In this document: positions 3,893-36,848 of the stretch, piece by piece
How positions within the stretch are numbered: position 1 is the stretch's first letter
Layout of the letters: each line of letters begins with the position of its first letter
DNA from: a virus
Virus record (IMG/VR): IMGVR_UViG_3300045911_000130
Span: 1 to 64,000 of that record
Length of the DNA stretch: 64,000 bases
Strand: one strand, 5' to 3'
The notes under the pieces: generated by a model
What the model was told of the DNA's origin: nothing
The model's database searches: none
The model's input: the letters and a program-made list of their open reading frames with translations, nothing else
Program-made: the position numbers and the translations under genes

Positions 3893-4380
3893 CCATTCGA
3901 GCACCAGGGGCGGGTTTGAAGCCGTGTCCGTATTGCGGTCCAGGGCAGAGCGTGGTCCGCTACTACGACGATCATTTTAAGGACGGAACCATGTATCATG
4001 CCGTTGCGTGTGGTCGATGTGGGGCACACTCTGGCGTCCGACCACAATCCGATCCAGACGGCAAGGAAAAGGTGATCGACTCCTGGAATAACCGTCCTGT
4101 TGAGGCCGCGAAGGACGCGCAAATTGCTGTCCTACAAAGACGCATTACCGATTTGCTGGAGTCCAACAACCGCTACGAGGCTCGCTACCGCAAGGCGAAA
4201 GAGATGTTTCGGGACATATTCTTGGCGGGCGCAAAGTGGTGGGAATGGCACAAAACCGGCTTGCCGGTCGATCAGGGCGGCATAGGCGCAAGCGCAACTA
4301 TGTGGCAGTCGGATCAGCGTTTGGTTGTTGAAGAGTTCGACAAGAGGCTTGCTGATGGGAAATACAGAATCGATTTTTAG
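3889..4380 (+). CDS. Lar-like zinc-ribbon protein with C-terminal helix
   Basis: A 163-aa protein starting at GTG 3889, which overlaps the upstream stop (GTGA) and has GGAG five bases upstream. LKPCPYCG at residues 10-17, then CGRCGAHSG and VIDSWNNRP, match the Lar (restriction alleviation) zinc-ribbon pattern, in which two CxxC pairs bind zinc and the domain ends in a W-N-R motif. The family name comes from the Rac prophage protein that moderates type I restriction; most phage members are untested. Residues 70 onward form a charged coiled helix not typical of Lar. Confidence 0.7.
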   Translation: MTIRAPGAGLKPCPYCGPGQSVVRYYDDHFKDGTMYHAVACGRCGAHSGVRPQSDPDGKEKVIDSWNNRPVEAAKDAQIAVLQRRITDLLESNNRYEARYRKAKEMFRDIFLAGAKWWEWHKTGLPVDQGGIGASATMWQSDQRLVVEEFDKRLADGKYRIDF

Positions 4381-4648
4381 CCGAGAACTGGCCGATGGCC
4401 GGTTGATCGATGTCATCCCGTTGACGTTTGGCCGAGCCCGGATCGGCATTCGAGGCCCAAATCTCAGCGACGGTTCGCCGGATATGTATACCGACGTTTG
4501 GTGATACGACAGCCCAACCGTGGCGGTCGTCGCGGCGCAAGTATGGAATCCAGATTCTCAGCCGGAGCCGCAAGGCTGGATGCGGCATCCGCAAAGCGGA
4601 CGGCGCAGGCCGGATGGCGATGCTGAACAGGAGTATGTGAATCCGTGA
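4355..4648 (+). pseudogene. Conserved small phage gene interrupted by in-frame TGA
   Basis: From ATG 4355 one frame runs to the TGA at 4646-4648, broken only by a TGA at 4502-4504 (codon 50). The first part reads MGNTESIFSRELADGRLIDV, then IPLTFGRARIGIRGP. The second part continues in the same frame with VWNPDSQPEPQGWMRHPQSG and RRRPDGDAEQEYV. I recognise the combination of PLTFGRARI and GWxRHPxTGRRRPDGD as the two ends of one widespread small phage family. The end overlaps the next GTG (GTGA), as for an intact gene. It could be a nonsense mutation, a sequencing error or stop-codon readthrough. If translation stops at 4504 the product is 49 aa. Confidence 0.6.
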
Positions 4649-4842
4649 AACCGGAATTAAGTTCGGTCAACAAGCTGCTAGCACGCAACGGTTCAGATCG
4701 GATTCTGACAGAGTATAAATGCGGTTGCACCTGGGTAGGCAGGCGCGACGAAAAGCCGGATTACTGCGAAAAGCATGGCGGTGATGTGCTCAATAACATC
4801 GCTGTGGTAGATAAGTCGTGGAAGACTGGCTGGGCGCATTAG
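4645..4842 (+). CDS. Small Cys-containing hypothetical protein
   Basis: A 65-aa protein from GTG 4645, overlapping the preceding reading frame by GTGA; AGGAG lies about 11 bases upstream. CGC at residues 27-29 and later DYCEKHGGD suggest a compact metal knuckle. It is the last gene of the first unit and is followed at once by a strong terminator. Function unknown. Confidence 0.7.
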   Translation: MKPELSSVNKLLARNGSDRILTEYKCGCTWVGRRDEKPDYCEKHGGDVLNNIAVVDKSWKTGWAH

Positions 4843-6506: not shown

Positions 6507-6881
6507 ATGTCTCAGCCTGAGAATGAACAACTTGGAAGCGTCATATGGGCGCAAAGCGGGATTGCGAAACGCAAAGATGGTGTTGAGCCGTTTGTCCAGT
6601 TGATGAAGGACGATAGGGTCGTCGGCCAGTTTACGGTTGAACTGGCACGCGAGTTTGCAGGAAACCTTCTCGCCGCAGCGGAAGCCGCCGAATCGGACGC
6701 TATCTTTACCATGTTCTCGACAAACGAGCTTCGCATGGATTTGGAGACGGCTAGTAAGATTTTGGTGGCGTTCCGCAAGTATCGCGGAGCCAGCGGCAAG
6801 CCGAGTAACGCGACTTCGCGGAATGAGTTTGTTGTCACCGATCAGCATGTGAAGCCGGACGAGACGGAGGAAATCGGATAA
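6507..6881 (+). CDS. Hypothetical protein
   Basis: A 124-aa protein with AGGAG upstream of ATG 6507. It combines a beta-rich beginning (LGSVIWAQSGIAKRKDGVEP) with helices (TVELAREFAGNLLAAAEAAE). No motif recognised. Its TAA shares its last base with the ATG of the hydrolase gene at 6881. Confidence 0.7.
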   Translation: MSQPENEQLGSVIWAQSGIAKRKDGVEPFVQLMKDDRVVGQFTVELAREFAGNLLAAAEAAESDAIFTMFSTNELRMDLETASKILVAFRKYRGASGKPSNATSRNEFVVTDQHVKPDETEEIG

Positions 6882-7807
6882 TGATGAGTCCGAAGATACC
6901 GACGTTGATGATAAGCTGCCGGAGCCGATTCGTCGATCAGGTTGGGTTTGCGGACGTGAAGGCCGACGACGAGAAAGACGCAATCGGGTTTGGGATTAAC
7001 AACCTGTTCGGGCAGGGGCCTTCGCGTTCGGCCTGGAGCGGCTTTACTGAGCAATTTGCAGATATCATCCAGCCACGGCTTACCTATCTGGCCGGTGGAG
7101 AGCAGCCCGACATTTCCGTTTATTCTCCCAATCGCCGGGTGCTGTTGTGCGTGCATGGCTACAACAGCGATTGGCTCCGTGTTCAGGCTCGGTATGTGCA
7201 GTTGATAGAGCAGATTGCCTACCGGGATTACATTGGTCCATATTTGACCCAGACTCCGAAGTCTTGGCAGACCAAGCCGTCAACAACGATTCCGGGAGCC
7301 CGGTACGATTGCCTGATCGGCTATTTGTGGCCGAGTGGGCTCACGGCGGGGCCGATTGGCTGGATTACGGCGAAGGCGCAAGTGCGCGAGGCCGCCAAGC
7401 GCCTGAGGACGCTTCTGGGCTGGTTGAACGCCATCAATGTACCTGTGACGATCTCCGCGCACAGCCTGGGCTGCGCTGTGGCGCTCCGGGCGCTCGAAGG
7501 GAACACGGATAGCTCCGTGCAGAAGGTCATCCTTGCCGGTGCGGCTGTCCCATACGATGAGCTACGCAGTCAAGGTGATGGTTTTGGCTATGGGGCCGGT
7601 AGGGTGAAGGTGGCCTATTCGGGCCGGGATCGCGTTCTGAAGTATGCCTACCGCGCTCTGCATCCCTTTACCCCGGCGCTGGGTTCGAGGGGGTTAAAGC
7701 CGGGCGAGCAGTATGCGGCAAACATCGAAGCTTTCGATTTGACCAGCAGCGTGTTCGACCACGGAGGTTACAACGATTCCGACGATTTCGTGGGGTTGTT
7801 TGAATGA
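6881..7807 (+). CDS. Alpha/beta-hydrolase fold protein (esterase/lipase-like)
   Basis: A 308-aa protein. RRVLLCVHGYNSDW at about residues 85-98 is the strand and oxyanion-hole HG motif. AHSLGCAVALRAL at about 192-204 is the nucleophile elbow with the catalytic Ser, and VAYSGRDRVLKYAYRALHP fits the acid-loop region. DHGGYNDS near the C-terminus can provide the catalytic His. The arrangement resembles the alpha/beta-hydrolase group that includes DUF900-type proteins. No signal peptide is seen, so it is probably cytoplasmic. Substrate unknown; an intact hydrolase is unusual among phage early genes. Confidence 0.8.
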   Translation: MMSPKIPTLMISCRSRFVDQVGFADVKADDEKDAIGFGINNLFGQGPSRSAWSGFTEQFADIIQPRLTYLAGGEQPDISVYSPNRRVLLCVHGYNSDWLRVQARYVQLIEQIAYRDYIGPYLTQTPKSWQTKPSTTIPGARYDCLIGYLWPSGLTAGPIGWITAKAQVREAAKRLRTLLGWLNAINVPVTISAHSLGCAVALRALEGNTDSSVQKVILAGAAVPYDELRSQGDGFGYGAGRVKVAYSGRDRVLKYAYRALHPFTPALGSRGLKPGEQYAANIEAFDLTSSVFDHGGYNDSDDFVGLFE

Positions 7808-33003: not shown

Positions 33004-33558
33004 ATGAACGCGGAAGATGCAGTAATCGCATCGGAGCCGGTTCAGCCAGCCTTGCGGATAGTAACAGTCTCTCCGCCGTCCGCCGACTCTGAACTCTCCC
33101 CTCCGGTAACGCAAGAACAACAAACTCGCGCCGTAACAGCGAAAAAAGCGCGAAGGGTTACGCCTCGAAACGTTGCCAAGATTCGACAACAGCAGATTCT
33201 TGACAATTTTCATGAACTGTCGGGCATGTTCCTGGACTTTCTTCGCAAGGGAGCGCGAAACGGCGATCCGCGAGCGGGCAAGATGCTCGGGGAAGTATTG
33301 GGCTACCTGGAGACTGCTTCCCCCAGCGGCAGCACCATCAACATCACGCAGACCAACAAGGTCGATGCCAGCCAAGACAATCGAACGATAGTCGCAACGG
33401 ATTCGCGTGGCTTTGAGAACATTGTGCGCCGCCTGGAAAAGCGCACTTCATCGGTACAGCTATCGAACGCTGACGCCGAAATCATCGAAGTCAAAGCGTT
33501 GCCATCCGCCGAACCGGCTGAGGACATCGACAAGATTCTCGATGAATTCACCCTATGA
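33004..33558 (+). CDS. Putative terminase small subunit
   Basis: A 184-aa protein immediately upstream of, and overlapping by ATGA, the large terminase. The central part has a basic helical segment (KKARRVTPRNVAKIRQQQIL) that may bind DNA, then GMFLDFLRKGARNGDPRAGK and an acidic C-terminal tail (AEDIDKILDEFTL) that could contact TerL. Assignment rests on position and layout, not on a recognised TerS family. Confidence 0.6.
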   Translation: MNAEDAVIASEPVQPALRIVTVSPPSADSELSPPVTQEQQTRAVTAKKARRVTPRNVAKIRQQQILDNFHELSGMFLDFLRKGARNGDPRAGKMLGEVLGYLETASPSGSTINITQTNKVDASQDNRTIVATDSRGFENIVRRLEKRTSSVQLSNADAEIIEVKALPSAEPAEDIDKILDEFTL

Positions 33559-36500
33559 GGTTTCTGGAGCCTAAGAGAATTTCAGGGCGCGATGCCGGGA
33601 TCGCGGAACTGATCGAGTACTTTGACGCCGATGAGCGCGTCGGGCGCTGGGATCTGTTGACCGACAAGGAACTGGAGATCATCGAAGGGGAAGCTACGCG
33701 CTGCAAGGAGCATTTTTCCTATGCGGCGCGTAACTATTTCAGCATGGTCAACAAGCGCCGTGAAGAGAAGATATTTGAGTTTTGGGAATCCCAAATGCTC
33801 ATTCTCGACCGGCTGCAACAACTTCAAGACCGCAGGCGTCCGGGGAAAATACTAGTCGTCAAGGCTCGACAACTTGGAGCCAGCTTGCTTCTGGAAATGC
33901 TAGTGGCCTGGAAGAGCATGTTTTTCCAGAACACGAACAGCGCCGTCGTAAGTTACGACCCGGACCATTCAGCCTACTTGTTTTCGCTCATGCAGTATGT
34001 GTATGACCGGATGCCCTGGTGGCTTCGCCCGATGTGCTCCAGCCGCGAATTCAAGAACGGTCTGGTATTTGAGAATCCCAGCTACGAAGATCGCCGGAAG
34101 AATCCTGGATTGAATAGCCGGATCACGGTGCAGAGCGCCAACAAGCTCACTGGCGTCGGCCAAGGCATCAAGATCAACGTCTTTCACGGATGCCTTGTTC
34201 CTTCTACGGCAATCCATCTCGCCGATGGAACGGTCAAGCCGATTTGTGACGTTGAGCCGGGCGATCTGGTTGTGACCTCAGAGGCTCGGGTGGCTTCAGT
34301 GAAGCACCGATTCCTCAGCGGCAAGTCGAACGAGGAAACTGCCAAGATTCGACTGTGGGGCAACAATTCATGGCTGGAGACAACGCTGGATCACAAAATC
34401 CTGACTCCGGGCGGCTGGGTGGAAGCTCAGCACATCCAGCCAAACGATAAGGTTCGATTCTCTGTTCGGCCAATTGAAGAGAATCAACGCGCTTTGGAAG
34501 TTTGGCAGTATGCAATTGGGGGCGATTGGAAAAAGCCAAAGCCGGTTCAGAGTGAATTGGTGCCTGTTGATTACGCATTAGGTCAGTATCTTGGATGGTA
34601 TCTAGCCGAAGGCAGCTTAAAGAAAACCAAACGCGGCGGCAAGGATTATGGATATCAATCTGTGTATTTCAGCGTTCATCGGAATGAAGTTGATTATATA
34701 AAGAGCATCATCCTAGCAATCGACAAAAATGCTAACATCAGAATTGAAAATGCAAAAGGTTCTCTAACTTCAAATGTTATTCATAACTCTCGCAGATTCG
34801 CTCGCTTGGTAAGCGAGGTTTGTTCTGTGACCGATACAAAGCACTTCCCAGCGTTTGCCTGGTCGTCTGGTCGAGACTTTTTGGCTGGGCTTGTGGATGG
34901 AATGTGGGATGGAGACGGCAACATTGGATCGACCGCTGAGAGAAGGGTGAAGTTCACAACTGTCCGTCACGCGATGGCTTTGGATATGCGGATGGCGATG
35001 GCGAGCCTAGGTTATGGTTGGTGCGCCATGAAATCGCGAGAGGCTGGTCGTCGCTACGGGCGGAATTGCAAAAAGGTGTGGATTGTTGAAGCGCTTGGCC
35101 GCACTTTCGACAGTTACATGAAAGTTCGCGGGATTCCCACTTGGTTGAAGCGTCAGGCCGGTCAAGATGCAGTTCAGCGTTGGGAATGGGCCGAAAACGG
35201 CAAATTCATCGACATCAAAGTCAAAGAGGTGGGCCGGGGCTTCAGCGCTACCTTCTGGGATCTTGAAATAGATGCGGCGGAGCATAGTTTCCAGACAGAG
35301 CACTGCGTTGTTAAAAACTCGGAAGTCGGCGATTGGGCGAACGCCGCCGAAGTCATCGACGGCGACTTGGTGAACGCGCTCGTGGAAGATTGGGATACCA
35401 TCGCGGCGCTCGAATCCACCGCCAAGGGCTCCGGCAACTACTTCCACCGCCTCTGGCTCCGCAACGTGGAGCTTGGCGAATCCGCCGAATGGCATCCGAT
35501 CTTCATGCCGTGGTTCTTTGAGGCTACGCGCGTTCTTGCGCCGCCGGGCGGATGGCGGCCAAAGCCGGAAGAACTTCAGATGCAGCAGCAGGTGGAGATG
35601 GAATGGCTGCGATGCAGCAACCCCACTTGCAAGCAATACCACGAGCGTTTGTTCCGGGATCGAGACCGTTCGGGTAGCGTGTGCCCGACCTGCACCAATG
35701 GTTTCCTGGTGGCGTACAAGCTGAGCCCGGACCAAATGTTCTGGCGCGAGGTCAAGCGCCTGAATTCGGATCGCGACGAGGTAAGCGCCAAGCTGCTCAA
35801 GCAGGAAATGGCGACGACCGCCACGGATGCGTTCCAGTCAAGCGGCTATACCCTCTTCCCTGAGGTCTGTCAGAGCTTCGTGCAGCAAACAGTGCGCGAG
35901 CCCCGGCTGAAGGGCCACTTTGACGGCAAGGATCAATTCCACGCGATTCACCCTGTCACGCTCCAATGCGTCCTCAATGGATGCGGCGCGGATCACTACG
36001 CGGACGGCAGGGATGTTTGGATCTGGGAATTGCCCGATCCAAATTCCGAATATGTGATGGGTGCCGACGTTGCGGAAGGTCTGGGCGGCCCGGACTCCGA
36101 CTTCTCGGTGGCTGTGGTTTTGCGCCTGGGCAAGAACGGCGCACCAGACCGGCAAGTCGCCAAATTCAGAAGTAACACCACAAGCCCGATTGAATTCGCC
36201 TACATGATGAAAAGCTTGGGCAAGTGGTATAACACTGCAATGATAGCGGTCGAACTCAACAAGTATGATATTGCGGCGGGTACGCTGCGATTCAACTTGC
36301 AGTATCCGAATCTGTACCGCTGGAAGGCTTTGGACGCAACGAACATCCTGACGAATAAGTTCGGCTGGGTGACGAACCAAGTAACGAAGCCAAGGCTCTA
36401 TCAGACCTTCATTCGCTACCTGAAGGCTAACATGGTCATCATTCGCAGCAAGAATTGCAGCGAAGAAATGAAGACTTTCCAGAAGGAAGATATGCAAAGC

Positions 36501-36848
36501 CGGGCGGCAGAAGCGGCGCTTGGAGCGTTCGACGACGAATTGATGGCGACCATGATTGCGTTGTATTGCGGCCATGAAGCGGAATATGACGACAATCTGG
36601 GATACCAACCTTTTTCAAAAAGGGTTACACTTGATAACGCGCCGTGGATTATGTCCTGTGGCGCATGTGGGGAGAAGTGGGGGCAAGAGGCTCCAAACGA
36701 GCGCGTGAACTGTCCGAAGTGCAATTCCATTCGCATCTATGGGCAGAAAAACAGCGACTTCGTAAAGGATGAAATGAAGGAGACTATAACCGACGAGTTA
36801 TTCGACCCGCCGGAATCGTCGTTTGCCAAGGAATACGAATTACTCTAG
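33555..36848 (+). CDS. Terminase large subunit with intein
   Basis: A 1097-aa precursor; without the 376-aa intein the mature protein is 721 aa. The N-extein has a Walker A variant KARQLGAS (residues 103-110). The C-extein resumes with SEVGDWAN, the conserved acidic SE motif. The nuclease domain has the Asp in VMGADVAEG and a later Asp pair in FDDELMATMIA. Two zinc fingers occur, CSNPTC...CPTC and CGAC...CPKC. TerL is the ATP-driven motor and nuclease that packages phage DNA. Translation is coupled to the upstream gene (ATGA). Confidence 0.9.
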   Translation: MRFLEPKRISGRDAGIAELIEYFDADERVGRWDLLTDKELEIIEGEATRCKEHFSYAARNYFSMVNKRREEKIFEFWESQMLILDRLQQLQDRRRPGKILVVKARQLGASLLLEMLVAWKSMFFQNTNSAVVSYDPDHSAYLFSLMQYVYDRMPWWLRPMCSSREFKNGLVFENPSYEDRRKNPGLNSRITVQSANKLTGVGQGIKINVFHGCLVPSTAIHLADGTVKPICDVEPGDLVVTSEARVASVKHRFLSGKSNEETAKIRLWGNNSWLETTLDHKILTPGGWVEAQHIQPNDKVRFSVRPIEENQRALEVWQYAIGGDWKKPKPVQSELVPVDYALGQYLGWYLAEGSLKKTKRGGKDYGYQSVYFSVHRNEVDYIKSIILAIDKNANIRIENAKGSLTSNVIHNSRRFARLVSEVCSVTDTKHFPAFAWSSGRDFLAGLVDGMWDGDGNIGSTAERRVKFTTVRHAMALDMRMAMASLGYGWCAMKSREAGRRYGRNCKKVWIVEALGRTFDSYMKVRGIPTWLKRQAGQDAVQRWEWAENGKFIDIKVKEVGRGFSATFWDLEIDAAEHSFQTEHCVVKNSEVGDWANAAEVIDGDLVNALVEDWDTIAALESTAKGSGNYFHRLWLRNVELGESAEWHPIFMPWFFEATRVLAPPGGWRPKPEELQMQQQVEMEWLRCSNPTCKQYHERLFRDRDRSGSVCPTCTNGFLVAYKLSPDQMFWREVKRLNSDRDEVSAKLLKQEMATTATDAFQSSGYTLFPEVCQSFVQQTVREPRLKGHFDGKDQFHAIHPVTLQCVLNGCGADHYADGRDVWIWELPDPNSEYVMGADVAEGLGGPDSDFSVAVVLRLGKNGAPDRQVAKFRSNTTSPIEFAYMMKSLGKWYNTAMIAVELNKYDIAAGTLRFNLQYPNLYRWKALDATNILTNKFGWVTNQVTKPRLYQTFIRYLKANMVIIRSKNCSEEMKTFQKEDMQSRAAEAALGAFDDELMATMIALYCGHEAEYDDNLGYQPFSKRVTLDNAPWIMSCGACGEKWGQEAPNERVNCPKCNSIRIYGQKNSDFVKDEMKETITDELFDPPESSFAKEYELL
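34191..35318 (+). mobile_element. LAGLIDADG intein in terminase
   Basis: Residues 213-588 of the precursor (376 aa). Block A starts at Cys213 (CLVPSTAIHLADGTVK); block B has WLETTLDHKILTPGGW with the conserved TxxH. The two LAGLIDADG helices are LGQYLGWYLAEG (about 341-352) and FLAGLVDGMWDGDGNI (about 442-457). Block F is FWDLEIDAAEHSF, ending VVKN588. The splice junctions are HG|C and N|S; the +1 residue is Ser. The usual penultimate His is Lys. It inserts at the conserved SE of the ATPase, a typical choice of an essential site. Confidence 0.92.

Follow-up and report, generated by a model that had tools for sequence, protein, structure and literature searches.

The window analysed here, a stretch of DNA of 64,000 nucleotides, covers the initial 64 kb of a virus record with a length of 103,463 bp (IMGVR_UViG_3300045911_000130), a tailed phage in which genes for a portal protein (P22/SU10-like), a major head protein and a terminase are recognisable. 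Near its beginning lies a small gene with one in-frame UGA, for which the following features can be described.

4342-4347, plus strand: Shine-Dalgarno-like AAGAGG, 7 nt 5' of the ATG at 4355 (putative, from the sequence)
4355-4648, plus strand: whole predicted selenoprotein gene, from ATG to a TGA stop, 97 residues with selenocysteine (Sec) as residue 50; in 41 members, a single frame is conserved before as well as after the UGA
4502-4504, plus strand: in-frame UGA as putative Sec codon, residue 50, with TGG and TAC on either side (W-U-Y)
4518-4524, plus strand: CCGUGGC, predicted 5' half of the upper bSECIS stem (hairpin comparison)
4525-4528, plus strand: predicted bSECIS apical loop, GGUC; the loop starts 20 nt past the UGA
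4529-4535, plus strand: GUCGCGG, predicted 3' half of the upper bSECIS stem (hairpin comparison)
4646-4648, plus strand: actual stop codon TGA, shared in part with the GTG start codon of the following ORF (4645-4842)

The gene, its relatives and the codon at the site

The translation of 4355-4648 (plus strand) is MGNTESIFSRELADGRLIDVIPLTFGRARIGIRGPNLSDGSPDMYTDVW*YDSPTVAVVAAQVWNPDSQPEPQGWMRHPQSGRRRPDGDAEQEYVNP*, and the sole internal TGA is that at 4502-4504. The preliminary description of this locus was therefore correct in reporting a single frame that is interrupted only by this TGA, and also a GTGA overlap at the gene end, where the terminal TGA overlaps the ORF that starts at 4645.

A scan of IMG/VR with the single sequence of the window protein retrieved nothing, and profiles were needed to reach the relatives. 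The first relatives are encoded by jumbo phages of Caulobacter, Brevundimonas and Sinorhizobium and by plasmids of Skermanella, Sphingosinicella and Pseudomonas, and Cys occupies the TGA column in all of them. When IMG/VR and GTDB genomes were scanned with a profile, 52 relatives were added; two of these show 49 and 51% identity to the window protein and likewise have a TGA at exactly this codon. A profile built from these two and the window protein retrieved further members, and it was followed by a profile of six together with a DNA pattern (W-UGA-Y and then the hairpin loop). The final set comprises 40 distinct TGA members (the window included), mostly at 40-60% identity and from separate contigs and samples, one TAG member, and 59 members with Cys, which are encoded by phages and plasmids. 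The site is occupied by Cys, TGA or TAG, and by no other residue in any member; the stop codons are TGA in 40 cases, TAG in one and TAA in none. When the whole frame is aligned with the homologs, the residue opposite the TGA is Cys in 59 of the 59 Cys-type homologs, in agreement with what had been stated about this family when the locus was first described.

Further searches did not enlarge the family: a loose DNA pattern (W-UGA-[Y/F/N/I] plus GWxxH) gave no new relative among the matches listed, and a scan of 392 Planctomycetota genomes returned only an already-known metagenome-assembled genome (MAG). One uncultured phage (L010) was rejected as a chance match outside the family. Five viral contigs (L254, L255, L266, L268 and L270) match the DNA pattern of W-UGA-Y plus SECIS loop and do not encode this family; they represent either chance matches or other selenoprotein genes. 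Of 65 family members scanned, 24 are matched by PHROG 24748, a group of unknown function whose annotation does not note the Sec form; the window protein itself has no PHROG match, PHROG 24748 included.

The sequence past the UGA is conserved up to the C-terminus. The frame remains open for at least 40 codons after the UGA or UAG in 41 of 41 members, whereas stops interrupt the other two frames in 21 and 28 members, respectively. Post-UGA mismatches amount to 32% at the first, 31% at the second and 62% at the third codon position, so that the third varies about twice as much as the other two. In the tree of the family, the UGA/UAG members fall within one set of 44 members, which includes only three Cys members, and three changes of codon state are needed, compared to 32.6 with shuffled labels. 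The terminal branches are long (median of 0.51 changes per column); the UGA has thus been retained over a long time, which rules out a recent mutation or a sequencing error.

A conserved hairpin downstream of the UGA

The published model of the bSECIS element demands a loop of 3-9 nt with G in the first two loop positions, a stem of 4-16 bp, a spacing of 16-37 nt after the UGA and a minimum free energy of at most -7.5 (PMC13188914). The hairpin of the window, CCGUGGC-GGUC-GUCGCGG (4518-4535), satisfies this model with a stem of 7 bp, the loop GGUC, a distance of 20 nt and -12.2 kcal/mol for the 44-nt fold. By itself, this hairpin is not unusually stable (RNAfold z of 0.36), and a competing fold wins when 40 nt only of the window sequence are folded. 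Since the region is GC-rich, individual members reach only weak RNAfold z-scores, and thus the case is carried by the comparison with the Cys members and by synonymous controls.

For this comparison, 17 members found by the DNA pattern alone were left out of the statistics, because the pattern had selected for the loop. The 24 UGA/UAG members from the protein search have a mean contiguous stem of 5.54 pairs, in contrast to 1.20 pairs in the Cys members. Shuffling of synonymous codons (2000 sets, protein unchanged) resulted in only 2.88±0.37 contiguous pairs, with a maximum of 4.25. Likewise, 81.4% of the cells are paired, compared to 65.9% after shuffling, and changes on both sides of a pair number 27 versus 12.3, a value that was reached in none of 500 shuffles. 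The true register was the best of seven in pair counting, and RNAalifold, unprompted, chose pairs from the same helix.

The loop is GGUC in 16 of the 24 members from the protein search, and the remaining loops also start with N(0-1)G[G/U]. Shape and place of the hairpin are constant, while the stems differ between the window and, for example, GUGCGGC-GGUC-GCUGCAC (L063), GGGCUGC-GGUC-GUAGCCC (L204), GGGCGGC-GGUC-GUCGCCC (L207), GGAAAGC-GGUCU-GCUUUCC (L221) and GUGAUAGC-GUU-GCUGUCAC (L012). The loop GGUCU of L221 resembles that of E. coli fdhF. The hairpin is kept by compensatory changes and is absent from the Cys homologs.

Selenocysteine as the probable reading of the UGA

The gene is very probably intact and encodes a phage selenoprotein of about 97 amino acids, with the UGA at 4502-4504 read as Sec via the bSECIS hairpin. 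The earlier label of a split gene has therefore been abandoned, and of the three explanations that accompanied it (nonsense mutation, sequencing error or readthrough), only readthrough stands, and specifically in the form of Sec recoding.

The phage would contribute only the cis signal. During infection, the SelB of the host would bind the hairpin at 4518-4535 and bring Sec-tRNA-Sec, a product of the host's SelA and SelD, to the UGA, where the ribosome would insert Sec and complete the protein. Without selenium or a Sec system, translation would stop at the UGA and leave a stub of 49 amino acids. ARAGORN found no tRNA in the window phage record, and the virus records of UGA members (those of the window and L012 and 38 others) gave no tRNA-Sec above the Rfam cut-off. 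Searches for SelA and SelB in the window and L012 records were likewise negative. Decoding would thus be host-dependent, and the best reading is that of a phage-borne selenoprotein family that would be decoded by the Sec machinery of the host.

One UGA member, L063, belongs to a Planctomycetota MAG (G001), where its contig of 81 kb also carries a gene for a tail tape measure protein. This MAG contains SelA (488 bits), SelB (325 bits) and a tRNA-Sec with the anticodon UCA (71 bits), all of them over the cut-off, as well as matches to SelD (L305) and to the formate dehydrogenase FdhA (L297) with one in-frame TGA each, so that SelD itself appears to be a selenoprotein in this organism. Provided that the metagenomic binning is correct, the sole UGA member that is linked to a host genome is thus found alongside a bacterium in which UGA is read as Sec.

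It is very improbable that the UGA is instead passed by near-cognate or regulated readthrough with a standard amino acid (Trp, Arg or Cys), yielding products of 49 and 97 amino acids. UGA is the leakiest stop codon, and a hairpin 3' of a stop can stimulate readthrough. However, the hairpin found here has the loop identity and the spacing of a SECIS, Cys is the residue aligned in every case, the swap of one invariant Cys would not be expected from simple readthrough, and a Sec-decoding host is linked to one member. A nonsense mutation or a sequencing error in a gene whose normal residue at this site is Cys has practically no probability left, even though TGA is only one base away from TGC and TGT, the codons of the Cys homologs. 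The TGA at the same codon in 39 further distinct homologs, from separate contigs and samples, the downstream frame that is conserved in all of them and the covarying hairpin together exclude both, and decayed genes would not be expected to retain mostly UGA (40 TGA, one TAG, no TAA) along with the frame and the hairpin. Genome-wide reassignment of UGA (code 4-like) or a phage-encoded UGA suppressor tRNA can be dismissed as extremely unlikely, since, although stop reassignment is known in phages for TAG (PMC9523058), TGA ends 35 of the 106 ORFs of at least 100 amino acids in the 103-kb record (it had rightly been regarded as a normal stop elsewhere), no tRNA was found in these 103 kb, and among the frames of the record that read through a TGA, only that at 4355-4648 has many loci (103, compared to one or two for each other frame) in which conservation extends past the TGA. 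None of the other candidate Sec genes in this phage shows such conservation in more than two loci.

The portal protein of the window phage is closest to phages of Tunturiibacter, an acidobacterium. Another acidobacterium, Occallatibacter riparius, has been listed with three selenoprotein genes (PMC12013277), and the two observations give a weak hint to the host of the window phage.

The one member with a different stop codon (L228, IMGVR_UViG_3300031939_000001) has TAG at the Sec site (L228:5106-5108), followed by the hairpin AGGCCGC-GGUC-GUGGCCU at the same distance as in the UGA members. Its contig has a GC content of 72%, and its terminase is nearest to those of Gordonia and Mycobacterium phages. 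In Geodermatophilaceae, high-GC actinobacteria, Sec is encoded by UAG and decoded with tRNA-Sec(CUA) (PMC5330540). L228 resembles this system in its UAG, followed by the bSECIS hairpin, and in its GC-rich contig with an actinophage-like terminase, with the difference that its putative UAG-Sec gene is located on a phage contig. This one sequence suggests a candidate UAG-selenocysteine gene in a phage, with a Sec codon that follows that of UAG-using hosts, and the simplest reading is that the phage would infect a Geodermatophilaceae-like host with UAG-Sec. The L228 record contains no tRNA-Sec above the cut-off, and a UAR version of the SECIS pattern revealed no UAG or UAA family member beyond the contig of L228. 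On the whole, chances are somewhat better than even that a widespread phage family depends on host Sec machinery, with a selenium-dependent step of infection and a Sec codon that follows that of the host, including a switch from UGA to UAG in a phage of actinobacteria with UAG-encoded Sec.

The protein and its place among known selenoproteins

AlphaFold2, with 65 members, produced a confident model (pLDDT 90.7, pTM 0.81) with predicted strands at 8-11, 17-22, 28-33 and 45-51 and a helix at 54-63, which places residue 50 in the fourth strand. Four positions are invariant across the family alignment: C/U50, P72, W75 and R83. Foldseek gave no structural match of the model in PDB or BFVD that reached an E of 0.001, and neither a Pfam match nor a hit in a PDB sequence search was obtained with the window protein or its model. 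A disulfide centre of the CxxC type was excluded because the family has no second conserved Cys. Sec is mostly found at redox or nucleophilic sites, and its presence would thus be a strong functional clue for this family. The best guess, with about an even chance of being right, is a lone selenol or thiol nucleophile or a peroxidatic-like centre; within a small protein of four strands and one helix, a lone selenol located in one of the beta strands might act as a redox or nucleophilic centre. The genomic context gives no function, since no neighbour gene of the UGA members is conserved (the two large clusters consist of antisense mirrors of this very gene), and such varied neighbourhoods are as expected for an accessory gene.

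The phage family resembles bacterial SelB/bSECIS selenoproteins such as the formate dehydrogenase H of E. coli (fdhF) in having an in-frame UGA at a Cys/Sec site and, directly downstream within the coding sequence, a hairpin with a small G-containing apical loop. Unlike these, it is encoded by tailed phages without Sec genes of their own and has no Pfam or structural relative. Viral selenoproteins are known from poxviruses, namely the glutathione peroxidases of molluscum contagiosum and fowlpox viruses, and these are likewise encoded by the virus and decoded by the host machinery (PMC8310308). However, they represent a captured host enzyme with a eukaryotic SECIS in eukaryotic viruses, whereas the phage family combines a bacterial SECIS with a small protein and is, in addition, widespread in the Cys form in phages and plasmids. 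A search of the literature on phage and viral selenoproteins yielded only eukaryotic viruses and unrelated work, with mostly open-access coverage, so that absence is not proof, and the words phage and virus are absent from the prokaryotic selenoproteome reviews of 2022 and 2026. The mechanism of Sec insertion is thus known, while the protein family and its presence in phages were not found described in the literature covered.

Prokaryotic selenoproteins have so far been catalogued from cellular genomes. If confirmed, tailed phages would own a selenoprotein family with a conserved SECIS that uses the SelA, SelB, SelD and tRNA-Sec of the host, and infection would be tied to the selenium use of the host. 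This would also account for the truncated appearance of such genes in annotated phages, and it would offer a direct test of host identity: Sec-decoding bacteria should be the only hosts of UGA members, and bacteria with tRNA-Sec(CUA) the only hosts of UAG members.

Three further observations were made in these phages. The record of another UGA-member phage (IMGVR_UViG_3300021475_000052) encodes a tRNA with a CUA anticodon that ARAGORN classified as tRNA-Pyl (L285, G397:C1:4862-4934), possibly an amber suppressor. In the window, the ORF of the terminase large subunit (33555-36845, 1097 amino acids) contains a LAGLIDADG-like domain between two terminase-matching ends, probably an intein, and an alpha/beta hydrolase (DUF900) is encoded at 6881-7807 among small early phage genes.
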